Positions 3,080 through 7,518 of a stretch of 24,366 nucleotides of DNA are shown here, piece by piece. The translations under genes were made by a program, and so were the position numbers. Under the pieces are notes generated by a model. It was not told the origin of the DNA. It saw only the letters and a list, made by a program, of their open reading frames with translations, and made no database searches. How positions within the stretch are numbered: the stretch's first letter is position 1; each line of letters starts with the position of its first letter. Source of the DNA: a virus; the IMG/VR virus record IMGVR_UViG_3300021425_000189, positions 1-24,366 of that record, one strand, 5' to 3'.

Positions 3080-5446
3080 ATGGCAAAACGTTTCTTAGGA
3101 TTTACACCAGAGCAGAGAGGCAAGATACTGCCTGAGTTAGCTGGTATGCAAGAGGATGAACAACGTAAAGTTATTGCATCTAATCCTGCCTATCAGCAGA
3201 AGCTTGGTAATGCTACAGAGCAAGCAATGCGTATACTCAACCCAGAGCCAGTAAAGGCAAGGGGTGGTATGTTTATGCCCGGAGGACAACTAATTAGTCA
3301 ACTTGACCCTAATAAGATTCAACAGCTTCAGGATGCTAACTCTGGGGTGGCAGACAACTTTGTTCGTCCTGAAGATAATGCTAATAGCTCTTCATTCTTG
3401 GTTGAAAATGGTGATATAGCTAGTACTTTAACACCTAAGCAACTAGAAGAACTTTCAGGTACACCTATCGATATGCAGTTTGGTCCTGCGACTAATCAAC
3501 CTATGATAGCTGATCAGGATGTAACTAATAGGTTCAACAGAGAACAGCAACCCCCATCACAAGGTCAGATAGACTTAGATGCTGCACAGAAGGCTGCTAG
3601 TGATGCTATGGCTGCAGTACAGGCCGCTAGAGATGCTCAAGCCGCTGATCCTAGCAATGAAGACTTAGTAAAGGCTTTACAGGAGCAAGAGGCTGCATTA
3701 ACTAGGGCGCAGGAAGGTTTAACTGTTGCTCAGCAGAGGTTTAAGACTACAGAGATGCCATCTAATGTAGAGATGACTTCTGCTGCTGTTACTGACCCTG
3801 AATCTCTAGTAACCCCTACAGAGGTTGCTAAAGTAGAGACTGACGATAAGCAAGTTATAGCAGAGGGTACTGGACAAGTAACTGGACCTGCACCTACTGC
3901 TACAGTAACAACTGCTGAGACTGCTGCTCCTGTTGTCGCCCCAGAGAAAACACCTGCACCTACAGTAGAAGCTACAACTGTGTCAGATGAAATAAATGCT
4001 ACACTTGACAAGCTTACTGCAGCAACTGGACTACCTAGTGATGAGGCACTAGCTAAGGCCGCAACCATGAAGCCAGAAGAACTGGCACAGCTTGGATTAG
4101 ATGCAGCACAGATTACAGCCGCACAGACAGTTAAAGCACCTGATGCTCGTAAGCTAGAAGAGGGTGAGATGATTGAGGGCGCTACCGTAGATATGGAGCG
4201 TGTTCGTAAAGAGACTAACTTTGAGGCAGCTACAGGCGCACCATCTACTGATGCTACAGTACAGGGTCAGCTAACTGGCCTGATGCAAGACTTTGAAGGT
4301 AAAGAACCACCAGCATGGGCAGCAGGAGCTATGAGGGCTGCATCTGCACAGATGGCTGCAAGGGGTCTTAGCTCTTCTAGTATGGCTGGTCAGGCTATTG
4401 TACAGGCTGCAATGGAGAGTGCTATCCCTATTGCATCTCAGGATGCTAAGACTGCAGCAAGCTTTGAGTTACAGAACTTATCTAACAAGCAACAGTCTGC
4501 TATGTTTGCTGCACAGCAACGTGCTGAGTTCCTCAACCTAGAGTTTAACCAAGAGTTCCAGACTCGTGTAGCTAATGCAGCTAAGATCTCTGACATAGCT
4601 AACATGAACTTTACTGCAGAGCAACAGATAGCACTAGAGAATGCTAGACTAGCTCAGTCAGTGGATCTAGCTAACTTGGATGCAGCTAATGCTAAGGTGT
4701 TGTCTGATGCTGCAGCTATGTCTCAGTTGGACATGACTAACTTAAACAACCGTCAGCAAGCACAAGTGCAACAAGCTAATGCGTTCCTACAGATGGATAT
4801 GAAAAACCTTGACAATGAGCAACAGACTAGTGTATTTAAGACACAGCAACGTGCTAATGCTCTGTTGTCTGATCAGGCTGCTGAGAATGCAGCTAAACAG
4901 TTTAACGCATCTAGTGAGATACAGGTTCAACAGTTCTACGATAACTTGAGTGCCTCTCTAGGGATGTTTAACTCAGAACAGACTAATGCTCAGAATAGGT
5001 TTAACGCTGGTGAAGCTAATGCTGTAGAGCAGTTCAACAAGAAGATGCTGGATCAGCGTCAACAGTTCAATGCAACAAACCAGTTAATCATTGAGCAAGC
5101 AAACGCATCATGGTATCAGTCTGTCGCTACTATGGATACTGCAGCACAGAATGAAGCTAACCGTGCTGATGCTGCTGCAGCAACTAATATGACTGCATTA
5201 GCATTCAGTGCTATGATGCAAGAAACTAGAGACATGATGAGTTATGCATGGCAAGCCGCAAACAATGACGCAGATAGAGCAACACAGTTGGCTATCGCTC
5301 AGATGCAATCAGATGACGCTAAACAGGCAGCAAGTGCTTCTAAGTCTGCTGGTTTCTGGGGCGCTATTGGTAACTTTGCAAGTTCAGCCATTGAAGGCTA
5401 CATGTATGGCAAAGCTACAGGCTCATCAAAACTTCCAACAGGGTAA
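3080..5446 (+). CDS. repeat-rich virion protein, putative internal or tail structural protein
   Basis: A 788-residue Ala/Gln/Asn/Met-rich protein, unlike any enzyme I know. Residues about 1-130 are mixed. About 150-230 is an Ala/Gln/Asp helical stretch. About 230-340 is Thr/Pro/Ala/Val-rich and probably flexible. From about 400 to 720 the chain is almost entirely predicted helix, with repeated NL.N.QQ units (see the repeat entry) followed by QFN/RFN units. The C-terminus has a small Gly/Ala segment (SAGFWGAIGNFASSAIEGYMYG) that could touch membrane. An AAGGA ribosome site sits about 8 bases before the ATG. Between fibre and lysozyme genes, a virion role such as core, ejection or tail protein is likely; a tape-measure role is less likely in a short-tailed phage. 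Confidence 0.6.
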   Translation: MAKRFLGFTPEQRGKILPELAGMQEDEQRKVIASNPAYQQKLGNATEQAMRILNPEPVKARGGMFMPGGQLISQLDPNKIQQLQDANSGVADNFVRPEDNANSSSFLVENGDIASTLTPKQLEELSGTPIDMQFGPATNQPMIADQDVTNRFNREQQPPSQGQIDLDAAQKAASDAMAAVQAARDAQAADPSNEDLVKALQEQEAALTRAQEGLTVAQQRFKTTEMPSNVEMTSAAVTDPESLVTPTEVAKVETDDKQVIAEGTGQVTGPAPTATVTTAETAAPVVAPEKTPAPTVEATTVSDEINATLDKLTAATGLPSDEALAKAATMKPEELAQLGLDAAQITAAQTVKAPDARKLEEGEMIEGATVDMERVRKETNFEAATGAPSTDATVQGQLTGLMQDFEGKEPPAWAAGAMRAASAQMAARGLSSSSMAGQAIVQAAMESAIPIASQDAKTAASFELQNLSNKQQSAMFAAQQRAEFLNLEFNQEFQTRVANAAKISDIANMNFTAEQQIALENARLAQSVDLANLDAANAKVLSDAAAMSQLDMTNLNNRQQAQVQQANAFLQMDMKNLDNEQQTSVFKTQQRANALLSDQAAENAAKQFNASSEIQVQQFYDNLSASLGMFNSEQTNAQNRFNAGEANAVEQFNKKMLDQRQQFNATNQLIIEQANASWYQSVATMDTAAQNEANRADAAAATNMTALAFSAMMQETRDMMSYAWQAANNDADRATQLAIAQMQSDDAKQAASASKSAGFWGAIGNFASSAIEGYMYGKATGSSKLPTG
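4475..4870 (+). repeat. ~22-residue protein repeats inside the 788-residue virion protein
   Basis: Within the protein, N-L (or N-M) pairs fall at residues 466, 486, 508, 532, 554 and 576, intervals of 20, 22, 24, 22 and 22. The best-preserved units start NLSNKQQ, NLNNRQQ and NLDNEQQ and continue into an Ala/Gln segment such as QQRAEFL or QQRANALL. A 22-residue period equals two 11-residue turns, typical of long helices in coiled coils or lying on a membrane. The repeats are visible in the protein but poorly conserved as DNA. Confidence 0.6.
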
Positions 5447-5453
5447 TGATAAC

Positions 5454-6533
5454 ATGGCAAGTGAAGTACAATTCTCATTCGATGCTCTAAGCTTTCTAAA
5501 AGAGGCTTTACCAGAGCAAGAGGTTACTAAGCCAACTGAGTCGTTGGTTACTAGGAAGGCTCCTACTGTAGAGCCTGTTGAAGCTCAAGATGAAAACCAA
5601 ACTATGCTACGTGAGTTTGCTACTAGGCTTAATGATCGTTATGACTTAGCTAGTATCAATCAACAAAAGCCCTCTATTGATTACAGAAACTCTATGATAC
5701 AAGAGTACCTTGATAGTATCGAAGAGTACAGTCGTGACGATCAAATGAGAAGTGCTATTGATAAGGCTCTAATGGAAGCTACTAGACCCCCTATAGGGCA
5801 ACTATCAGAGACAGCTAGGACTGCTATGTTTAGTAGTGCTGATATGCGAGGTACTGAGTTAGCTATGATGGACAACGCTAGGGAAGCTCAGGATGTATTT
5901 CAGCCTATGGTTACGCCTGTCTCTAGGGGTGAACAACCAGAGATGGCAGACAGCCCAGCGCCTGTTGATACACCTAGTATAGATGCTCGTAGTAATGAGA
6001 TGCTAGATAAGCCTAAAGGTATTATGACTGACCCTAGAGGTAACAAACGTCCTAAAGCTAGACCAGAATCTGTTGAAGACCCTTTCTTTAAAAGAGCTAC
6101 AGAATTTTTAACTTTAAATGAAGGTTTTAGAAATGAACCTTACAAAGATTCTCGTGGATTTTGGACTATTGGAATAGGTCATTTGATAACTAGAGACAGT
6201 AAACTTCCTGATAAGTGGAAAGGTGTAAAACTTACAGACGAACAAGTTACAGATCTGTTTAAAAAAGATTACGACAAGCACTTAGAAGAAGCTAAAAAAT
6301 TCTCCGTCTATAATAAACTAAATGAAGAGGGCAGATTAGCTCTTTTAGATCTAACTTTTAATATGGGTACATCTAAATTTAATGAGTCTAAGTGGCCTAA
6401 TTTTTTTAAAGCTTTAGAGTCAGAAGACTTAGATACAGCCGCTGCGGAACTTAAAAACTCTAGGTGGTTTAATCAGGTTAAAAGTAGAGCGCCTCGTGTA
6501 ATAAGTTTAATTAAAAACGCACAATTCATATAA
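5454..6533 (+). CDS. T4-type lysozyme (GH24 muramidase) with long N-terminal extension
   Basis: A 359-residue protein that cuts the glycan chain of peptidoglycan. The start at 5454 is chosen because it follows the previous stop by seven bases with a CAGGG site upstream; the frame is open further left but would overlap the previous gene by about 200 bases. Residues 1-205 are Pro/Glu/Met-rich and look disordered or virion-binding. Residues about 210-359 are a T4 lysozyme domain: E223 in NEGF, D232 in YKD and T238 in FWTIGIGH, with the same 9- and 6-residue spacing as E11, D20 and T26 of T4 lysozyme. No signal peptide is seen. The extension and the virion-gene context fit either a virion-associated lysozyme or the endolysin used with the next gene. 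The domain is clearly more AT-rich than the extension. Confidence 0.85.
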   Translation: MASEVQFSFDALSFLKEALPEQEVTKPTESLVTRKAPTVEPVEAQDENQTMLREFATRLNDRYDLASINQQKPSIDYRNSMIQEYLDSIEEYSRDDQMRSAIDKALMEATRPPIGQLSETARTAMFSSADMRGTELAMMDNAREAQDVFQPMVTPVSRGEQPEMADSPAPVDTPSIDARSNEMLDKPKGIMTDPRGNKRPKARPESVEDPFFKRATEFLTLNEGFRNEPYKDSRGFWTIGIGHLITRDSKLPDKWKGVKLTDEQVTDLFKKDYDKHLEEAKKFSVYNKLNEEGRLALLDLTFNMGTSKFNESKWPNFFKALESEDLDTAAAELKNSRWFNQVKSRAPRVISLIKNAQFI

Positions 6534-6955
6534 TGTTTGGCTTACCTCTAGAACTTATCACTATGCTCTTCTCAACAGTGTTGGGGGGAGTAATGTCTAT
6601 CTGGGGTCAGTCTAATAAACAGAAGGCTGAACAACAGAGGGCTTTGATAGGTGCAGCAAGTCAGGCCCGTGAACACGGTAAGACAGATAAACACTTCGCT
6701 TGGACTAGACGTATCATAGCATTATCTGCAGTTTTCGCAATTATTGTCTTGCCAAAGCTAGTAGCAGTGTGGTATCCTGAAGTTACTGTCATAGTAGGGT
6801 ACACTGAAATGAATGGTGGGTTTTGGAACTGGTTGTTTGGCCCCGCTGAAAGCACTATGTGGGTATCTGCACGAGGCTTTGTTATTACACCCCTAGACAC
6901 ACACATCGTATCAGCCATTGTAGGACTTTACTTTGGCGCTGGATTTACTAAATAA
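6533..6955 (+). CDS. putative three-transmembrane holin
   Basis: A 140-residue membrane protein. Hydrophobic segments lie at about residues 4-24 (LPLELITMLFSTVLGGVMSIW), 61-81 (IIALSAVFAIIVLPKLVAVWY) and 122-138. A basic, soluble stretch (residues 26-60, SNKQKAEQQ to WTRR) separates the first two, and a Trp-rich loop the last two. This matches the general shape of 3TM holins, such as the gene-transfer-agent holin family. The start overlaps the lysozyme stop as TAATG, the usual place for a holin. Holins pierce the inner membrane so that lysozyme reaches the wall. The function is inferred from topology and position; a structural membrane protein remains possible. Confidence 0.5.
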   Translation: MFGLPLELITMLFSTVLGGVMSIWGQSNKQKAEQQRALIGAASQAREHGKTDKHFAWTRRIIALSAVFAIIVLPKLVAVWYPEVTVIVGYTEMNGGFWNWLFGPAESTMWVSARGFVITPLDTHIVSAIVGLYFGAGFTK

Positions 6956-6966
6956 GGTACAACAAA

Positions 6967-7518
6967 ATGGTTGATTTACTAAACGCCCCTATCCCTGGTC
7001 AGTCTCTTACAGACATACCTAAGAACTCACCGTGGGAAAACCCACCTGAGATGGTTAAGGTTCCAGAGATTGTAGACTACTACATTGGTAGTCTTGCTGA
7101 TGATGACAAGATGGAGGACTTAGCTATTCTGTTTGAGCTTGGTGCTGATCTACGTGGGATAGTAAAGACTATTACTACTGCAGGTGCTATGAAGGGCTTA
7201 CACACAGTTGAGGCTGGTATATTAGCTGCCCCTGTTATAGGTGCTTTCATAAAGGCTGCAATGTCTGAGTACGACATTAAAGTTAAAGAGACAAGTCTCG
7301 ACATAGAGAAAGCTCAGTCAATGAAAGAGAAAGAACGTCTTAAGTTGTTGACTATGGCGGCTATAGAAAAAGAGGCTAAGCAGGATGGTACAACCTCTGG
7401 CATTCTAGATGAAATTCGTGAGAACATGGACGTAGAAGAAGAGGCTCCTATGTCAGAGCCTACAGAAGAACAACCACAAGAAGAACCTAAAGGTCTTATG
7501 TCGAGAGGTGCAGTATAA
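6967..7518 (+). CDS. conserved phage virion-associated protein of unknown function
   Basis: A 183-residue protein. The N-terminus carries NAPIPGQSLTDIPKNSPWENPPE (split here as NAPIPGQSLT then PKNSPWENPPE), a pattern I recall from T4-like and podovirus-type marine phages. Residues about 32-100 look helical, with a mildly hydrophobic GILAAPVIGAFIKAAM segment. Residues about 104-145 are charged helix, probably coiled coil. The tail is very acidic (DVEEEAPMSEPTEEQ) and ends in GLMSRGAV. A TAAGG site built from the previous stop lies about 9 bases before the ATG, and the stop overlaps the next start as TAATG. It is probably a virion or assembly protein; the acidic tail could bind a basic partner. 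No enzymatic motif is seen. Confidence 0.55.
   Translation: MVDLLNAPIPGQSLTDIPKNSPWENPPEMVKVPEIVDYYIGSLADDDKMEDLAILFELGADLRGIVKTITTAGAMKGLHTVEAGILAAPVIGAFIKAAMSEYDIKVKETSLDIEKAQSMKEKERLKLLTMAAIEKEAKQDGTTSGILDEIRENMDVEEEAPMSEPTEEQPQEEPKGLMSRGAV

Follow-up and report, generated by a model that had tools for sequence, protein, structure and literature searches.

The likely exchange of the catalytic half of a phage lysin, in frame and behind a linker that stays in place, is the main outcome of this study. It concerns one gene, called here the slot gene, of the window (the whole stretch of 24,366 nucleotides that was analysed, IMG/VR record IMGVR_UViG_3300021425_000189, itself a fragment). Taking the explanation as a whole, we think it likely that this gene belongs to an HMO-2011-like marine podovirus and encodes a modular enzyme cutting peptidoglycan, with recombinational cassette exchange of the catalytic domain behind the retained linker. 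In the related viral contigs that we aligned, unlike catalytic types are shown to stand behind nearly the same linker on near-identical backbones; the 3' boundary of the exchanged piece is the stop codon before the next gene, and its 5' boundary lies in or just past the linker.

The shuffling of endolysin domains and the natural exchange of lysis genes are already known from the available parts of two papers. One describes mosaicism across databases, recent in origin, in which a shared protein part is joined to unrelated parts (Smug 2023, PMC10684548); the other reports that lactococcal phages exchange their endolysin naturally by homologous recombination, the piece exchanged being the entire lysis cassette, and calls the endolysins of phages infecting Gram-negative hosts rarely modular (Oechslin 2022, PMC9371310). 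Our case is like the first in combining a shared part with unrelated partners in phage lysins, and like the second in that a lysis gene is apparently swapped between phages through flanking homology. It differs from the first in that one linker of one marine phage group precedes about nine types, with the breakpoints resolved, and in that the constant part is this linker and not a known wall-binding domain; it differs from the second in that only the catalytic half would move, in frame, in phages whose hosts are presumed to be Gram-negative. No title or abstract among the open-licence papers searched describes a fixed linker with many domains, and the available parts of the literature on HMO-2011-type phages, RCA phages and roseophages do not mention it. 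Within the literature searched, we regard it as new that a single group of marine phages has, at one and the same place, a fixed linker followed by about nine catalytic types; new too are the in-frame breakpoints and a short peptide shared with a neighbouring gene. Similar backbones and one linker with many unlike wall-cutting domains form a natural series within one phage group, so that the question of why phages swap lysins becomes testable there.

The slot gene and its neighbours

Table 1. Features of the slot gene and of the genes around it in the window
Feature	Position	Strand	Remarks
Gene -2, 788 aa	3080..5446	+	conserved upstream neighbour, homologue of HMO-2011 gene 25
Slot gene (probable modular lysin), 359 aa	5454..6533	+	ORF and GH24 domain
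N-terminal part, residues 1-92	5454..5729	+	similar in 12 further contigs (L101-L112), dissimilar in nine (L113-L121)
Conserved linker, residues 93-195	5730..6038	+	recurs in 21 other contigs, with other catalytic parts behind it
Short motif PKGIMTD, residues 187-193	6012..6032	+	single-copy score only P 0.05-0.06
5' junction zone	6034..6084	+	similarity to L101 stops at 6034, to L112 at 6068; GC change point 6083/6084
Short motif RPKARP, residues 199-204	6048..6065	+	motif counts
GH24 (T4-type) catalytic domain	6084..6530	+	Pfam PF00959, residues 223-340
3' junction	6529..6533	+	similarity to relatives restarts at the stop codon / next ATG
Gene 0, 140 aa, hydrophobic in three stretches	6533..6955	+	holin-like by position and hydropathy only
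Gene +1, 183 aa, C-terminal tail PKGLMSRGAV	6967..7518	+	tail carries the shared motif
Gene +2, 682 aa	7518..9566	+	holds GMMSP-KPKRRP; relatives hold RPKARPEGLM
Gene +3, 1196 aa	9570..13160	+	without the motif, without a family match

The start of the slot gene was taken as 5454; a longer in-frame ORF, from 5244, overlaps the end of the gene at 3080-5446. In a profile search PF00959 reaches 63.2 bits on its protein (curated cut-off 22.3), and E223, D232 and T238, read from the translation, fit the E-x8-D-x5-T spacing which we take to be the catalytic triad pattern of T4 lysozyme. The catalytic half is in both respects like GH24 lysozymes of the T4 type, to which the window protein adds a 210-residue N-terminal region, including a linker that is probably unstructured. 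This region had been described at first as virion-type, a label that found no backing: its 210 residues had no match in phage records at E 0.1 and none to a family profile, and no structural-protein domain joined to the catalytic half was recognised in them by either search. The whole protein had 1602 matches in phage records, none of which covers 80% of it. Virion-associated lysins are well known (T4 gp5 and T7 gp16, for example), and the PHROG profiles of internal-virion and baseplate lysozymes do match the window's GH24 domain, with scores below that of the endolysin profile phrog_7; the window lysin differs from such proteins in that it has no recognised structural-protein domain.

The window phage shares a homologous class II RNR (84.4% to CRP-345 and 65.0% to HMO-2011) and gene -2 (50.6% identity to HMO-2011 over 57% of the query) with HMO-2011-type phages, and likewise gene +1, as compared with the available parts of their description (Qin 2022, PMC9038755). 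HMO-2011 itself differs in having no annotated slot gene and, instead, a stand-alone lysozyme adjoining the terminase. Gene 0, a putative holin on the grounds of hydropathy and position, gave no curated family over cut-off in profile searches. Among the matches listed, CRP-5 (Cobavirinae) has it at 81% identity, pelagiphages at 52-55% and a Verrucomicrobia phage at 33%; it therefore crosses phage groups. What is annotated directly before it varies: a putative lytic transglycosylase in CRP-5, a cell wall hydrolase in CRP-603, hypothetical proteins in CRP-2 and CRP-207, while several pelagiphages have a feature named peptidase M15 under the gene-0 match, at an approximate position.

At least 80 more loci were fetched by means of gene 0, and a census was made of their 75 slot proteins of at least 220 aa, after spurious N-terminal extensions over gene -2 had been trimmed. 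In this wider panel, 468 pairs had a match, in both halves for 84, in the C half only for 76, in the N half only for 267 and otherwise for 41, and the C halves of the 75 proteins fall into 28 clusters among the matches listed. The untrimmed census (74 proteins and 463 pairs; 70, 86, 267 and 40 in the same order) was little different. A protein of up to 730 aa precedes gene 0 in L036, L038, L054, L066, L068, L069, L071, L073 and L077. The slot proteins of this group (that of L036, for example) resemble no known lysin, which counts against the exchange of lysin domains as a full account of the panel.

Probable exchange of catalytic domains behind the linker

When viral contigs were searched with a linker profile (built from alignment A1, residues about 93-194), 21 others proved to have it, which makes 22 with the window, the gene being closed in 18. 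The first 92 residues are common to the window and twelve of these contigs (L101-L112, clade A with the window) and are not found in the nine others (L113-L121, clade B), so within one phage clade the N-terminal part is shown by alignment to be retained along with the linker. Behind the linker stand about nine catalytic sequence types, including GH24, SleB/Hydrolase_2, GH19 and a T4-lysozyme-like type. These were labelled by sequence, and one member of each (two for the type LysH) was scanned for families. The scan gave PF00959 over cut-off for the window, which alone has type GH24a, and PF00959 again for L116, which shares GH24b with L114; PF07486 for L112, of the SleB/Hydrolase_2 type (with L102, L107, L108, L109 and L115); PF00182 for L105, of the GH19 type (with L117, L120 and, from a partial domain, L119); and phrog_5867 (endolysin) for L118, alone in its type. 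No curated family was over cut-off for LysC (L101), LysD (L111 scanned; also L110 and, from 20 residues only, L106), LysF (L104 scanned; also L103) or either of the two LysH members (L113 and L121, 46% identical and given two labels in the tree test below), a point that weighs against our explanation. In profile comparisons with GH24 the L104 type reached 91%, a good match, and the L111 type (aligned with L101) and the L113 type 43% and 36%, both weak. The AlphaFold model of LysD (L111 type, pLDDT 73.9) had no match under E 0.001 with plain Foldseek; among the best 50 rows re-ranked by VIA-align its closest partners were T4 lysozyme chains, with Z values of 7.5-8.2 over 123-138 residues, a Z of up to 8.2 being at the edge of what VIA-align calls clear, and several of these chains being, we presume, receptor fusions containing T4 lysozyme.

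The window's GH24 domain was found behind the linker in none of the 20 other contigs with a readable part there (in L106 only 20 residues are readable behind the linker, and L007 stops ahead of the junction). The preliminary description had seen in this gene a recent joining of the catalytic domain to an older N-terminal region, and part of this idea stands: the catalytic domain does look like a separately moving piece behind a retained N-terminal region, both from this count and from the flanks of L101, and the linker region, when the two halves were searched separately, was indeed found with other lytic domains in related phage contigs. We would speak of a replacement rather than of a new fusion, however, since the genes of the relatives already hold a lytic domain at this place.

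Twelve contig pairs were compared at the DNA level, ten of them with different catalytic types (L117/L120 and L115/L112 share theirs). In all ten, similarity on the 5' side stops 23-143 nt past SNEM and on the 3' side restarts at most 6 nt from the stop codon. L113 and L114, with unlike catalytic parts, are 98.9% identical over 4335 nt upstream, as far as 137 nt past SNEM; downstream they reach 99.9% over 2455 nt, starting 6 nt before the stop. The same holds around the unlike middles of L117/L121 (99.4% over 3027 nt upstream, 99.2% over 3109 nt downstream) and of L108/L111 (96.9% over 3776 nt upstream, 94.3% and 90.0% in two downstream pieces). For the window and L101, whose catalytic halves are unlike, three upstream pieces are 94.2-95.9% identical, the last of which extends to 44 nt past SNEM; downstream, identity is 95.0% over 3364 nt beginning 4 nt before the stop, and the aligned flanks are about 95% identical overall. 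The reverse case is given by L117 and L120, which have different N parts and share 98.1% over 1758 nt comprising the linker, the catalytic part (99.9% identical) and the next gene. On a tree of 600 upstream nucleotides (22 rows, 10 labels), the catalytic labels require 12 changes, with a minimum of 9 and a shuffled mean of 14.8, and as few were reached in 2 of 200 shuffles; the labels thus track the backbone tree beyond chance, and exchange is not free. In three sets of rows with the same upstream sequence, more than one catalytic label occurs.

All contigs with the exact linker are metagenomic, and the breaks coincide with the points where the sequences become shared, as they would if assemblers had jumped between strains at the common DNA of the linker and of the next gene. 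We consider it highly improbable that such an artefact explains the data. Some backbones and domains may have been misjoined in this way, but a jump requires two real genomes with the linker before different domains, so that several domains behind one linker could not have been invented by it, and the same linker-domain arrangement recurs in separate samples (L103 and L104). The pattern also exists in cultured phages: the slot proteins of the isolates CRP-2 (L135, 26172-27095) and CRP-603 (L136, 26139-27080) share ADGVQP[TE]DGKV ahead of different C-terminal parts.

The linker DNA itself is shown by these comparisons to be common to clades whose neighbouring genes are highly diverged. Between clades A and B, four-fold sites give a difference of 0.158 within the linker, compared with 0.524 for the gene upstream (both from 117 pairs) and 0.595 for the gene that follows (from 56 pairs), and codon-wise profiles display a conserved tract, the linker, within otherwise unlike genes. 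It follows that the linker either moved between the clades or was preserved as DNA. Such a constraint, or recombination at a specific site in place of general homologous recombination, would account for 0.158 against 0.52-0.60 in the neighbours; it is nevertheless unlikely in our opinion, as the breakpoints have no fixed base (the 5' ends of the ten pairs spread over 23-143 nt after SNEM) and the codons under the shared motif vary.

We favour general homologous recombination, in which co-infecting phages would recombine by way of the linker DNA at the 5' end of the cassette and of the next gene at its 3' end; judging from the comparisons above, these two boundaries would keep each exchange in frame. 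The variety could be maintained if the best cell-wall chemistry differs between hosts or between competitors.

The base-composition step within the gene

The gene changes in composition where its GH24 domain begins, as the preliminary description had noticed from hand counts on sample lines, and full calculation agrees with all three of its observations. GC is 48.3% at 5941-6000 and 28.3-35.0% across the five 60-base lines of 6121-6420 (31.7% overall), or 43.1% in 5454-6017 and 33.5% in 6018-6533; the codons AAA, TTT and TTA go from 4, 4 and 3 in the first 210 codons to 15, 10 and 8 in the last 149; and the best GC change point, nucleotides 6083/6084, falls at residue 210/211, across which GC drops from about 43% to 32%. 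Permuting bases matched this change point in 3 of 500 runs, and permuting codons did so in 4 of 1000. The GH24 domain has the lowest GC among 944 windows of 150 codons, taken from the sufficiently long ones of 18 genes.

We do not think, however, that this step can be taken as proof of a recent joining, which the preliminary description had read from it. In a simulation with synonymous codons drawn from eight neighbouring genes as reference, amino acids alone gave an expected GC step of 0.068 (sd 0.016) where 0.110 was observed (P 0.004), so that amino-acid content accounts for about 60% of it. A synonymous shift towards AT does exist in the domain, whose GC3 is 0.221 where 0.350 was expected (P 0.0004), the N part not being deviant (P 0.18), and the GC3 step is 0.083 where -0.017 was expected (P 0.011); yet the best change point of GC3 alone lies elsewhere, at 5961, and is not significant (reached by 64 of 500 permutations). 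The first gene of the window, at 2-1762 (GC3 0.215 overall), has 150-codon stretches down to a GC3 of 0.12, under the 0.22 of the GH24 domain.

The catalytic part has a lower GC than the N part in 21 of the 22 contigs (one C part being of 60 nt only), and its GC3, set against the codon use of its own genome, has a mean z of -1.76 and lies below -2 in 8 of the 18 closed loci, some of which share a domain type, as against none of 18 for the N part. The lower GC and GC3 of the catalytic half are thus a general property of these genes, strongest in the window, and the step is weak evidence for recent acquisition because unrelated domains in the relatives follow comparable GC3 steps. The window's GC step (0.092) is the largest of the 18; its GC3 step (0.105) is not, L102 having 0.147.

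A recent acquisition from an AT-rich source, with nothing more required, would fit the low GC3 of the domain, the window's catalytic half as the most extreme of the 18 (z -4.1) and its largest GC step. We give it little credence, since the step is general in the relatives, the domain's codon choice, taken as a whole, has an unremarkable likelihood (P 0.32 in the simulation) and scans of viral contigs and genomes found no close donor: the nearest relative, 51% identical, is in L094, a contig beginning inside the gene, the other viral contigs reach 29-36%, and the genomes gave one short match, in Chryseobacterium. The step is not by itself a date stamp, and under the exchange that we prefer the AT-richness of the GH24 half would reflect its amino acids together with a leftover synonymous bias of the source pool.

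The shared peptide and the possible roles of the enzyme

The linker has in common with the tail of gene +1 a peptide, G[LI]M[ST]xP, often accompanied by RPxxRP, which hints, from its occurrence in the sequences, at docking or packaging. Both patterns were first noticed by eye in linkers (as RPxxRP and G[LI]M). Among the loci listed, 102 in number, 38 of the 584 unique ORFs contain RPxxRP, where shuffles give 0.7; by class, it is present in 32 of the 80 slot proteins (against 0.16 when shuffled) and 6 of 71 gene +2 proteins (0.08), and in none of 74 gene -2, 54 gene 0, 71 gene +1 and 65 gene +3 proteins. The C-terminus of gene +1 reads PxGLM[SA][RK] or nearly so, with G176 and M178 invariant in all 20 aligned sequences, some only 25% identical to that of the window; it lies in a low-confidence, probably disordered stretch of the structure model.

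To avoid a choice of pattern by eye, a scoring matrix was trained on gene +1 tails alone and then scanned elsewhere. At P<=0.01, among the loci listed, it finds 17 of 36 non-redundant slot proteins, where 0.4 are expected (19 of 36 after trimming), 2 of 17 gene +2 proteins, and none of nine, one and two proteins of genes -2, 0 and +3; when every unique slot protein is counted, the passes number 37 out of 75 and come from 12 flank families, or 33 out of 76 with the extensions trimmed. Among 247 ORFs in stretches of six named phages, 8 pass where about 2.5 are expected, four being training rows of gene +1 and the others, in CRP-603, the slot lysin and gene +2, in CRP-2 the slot lysin, and in HMO-2011 a gene between portal and coat. 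Two other readings of the motif were rejected: the codons under it vary, contrary to a DNA-level element, and Shine-Dalgarno-like letters precede only 15 of 36 sites, contrary to an internal start codon at the GLM methionine.

These counts could mean that the lysin is virion cargo, its linker peptide docking it to an assembly partner of genes +1 and +2; it would be packaged, be ejected with the products of these genes and open the wall at entry, and may serve lysis too. The variable codons, the lack of a motif match in the stand-alone lysozyme of HMO-2011 and the GH24 domain near the C-terminus of the 1639-aa gp54 of HTVC104P (L139, 19563-24479) go in the same direction. Still, we hold this to be a minor possibility. 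The window's own lysin copy scores only P 0.05-0.06 with the gene +1 matrix and its gene +2 copy is not significant, the pattern was first seen by eye, and the matrix passes include neither the CRP-207 and CRP-5 slot proteins nor any ORF of HTVC104P. Nor could genes +1 to +3 be named as ejection proteins: searches of PHROGs and PDB profiles, and a fold search for gene +1, gave no annotated relatives, with three stray PHROG matches of one member each (E 0.0015-0.0068), one PDB profile match at E 0.4 and one unnamed fold match under E 0.001. The parallel that we see with T7 gp14, gp15 and gp16 is therefore limited to order and size.

An ordinary role in lysis appears more likely to us. When six hydrolase families were searched in six genomes (Peptidase_M15_4 and Amidase_2 had no matches there), the slot gene was the sole match in CRP-603, CRP-207 (below cut-off) and CRP-5, which makes a lysis role likely, and from its position the slot enzyme would be an endolysin working with the holin-like membrane protein of gene 0. 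CRP-2, which has another hydrolase in gp58, speaks against this reading. That the lysozyme is particle-bound, as the preliminary description had suggested, is unproven: the shared peptide is only a hint, and the census favours lysis.

A broader and somewhat doubtful extension, which we put forward tentatively, is that marine podoviruses tag swappable wall enzymes with G[LI]M[ST]xP (often with RPxxRP), which is also the conserved tail of gene +1, a neighbour within the structural gene cluster. On the strength of this motif sharing, the enzyme may dock, through its linker peptide, to a partner common to genes +1 and +2. The linker would then be at once docking tag and recombination handle, a joint claim on which we are equally hesitant, and the same partner would recruit, and package or deliver, any catalytic domain placed beside the tag. 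The peptide in any case offers a concrete handle on whether a short tag can address lysins to the virion.

Three further observations concern large genes of the relatives. In the pelagiphage HTVC104P, gp54 is the largest gene of a minus-strand structural cluster. The SleB/Hydrolase_2 domain of CRP-2 (L135, 43315-45258) is in gp58, a protein of 647 aa encoded between portal and coat, the N-terminus of which carries KPKLRPK; in HMO-2011, gp49, also between portal and coat, carries a GIM motif.
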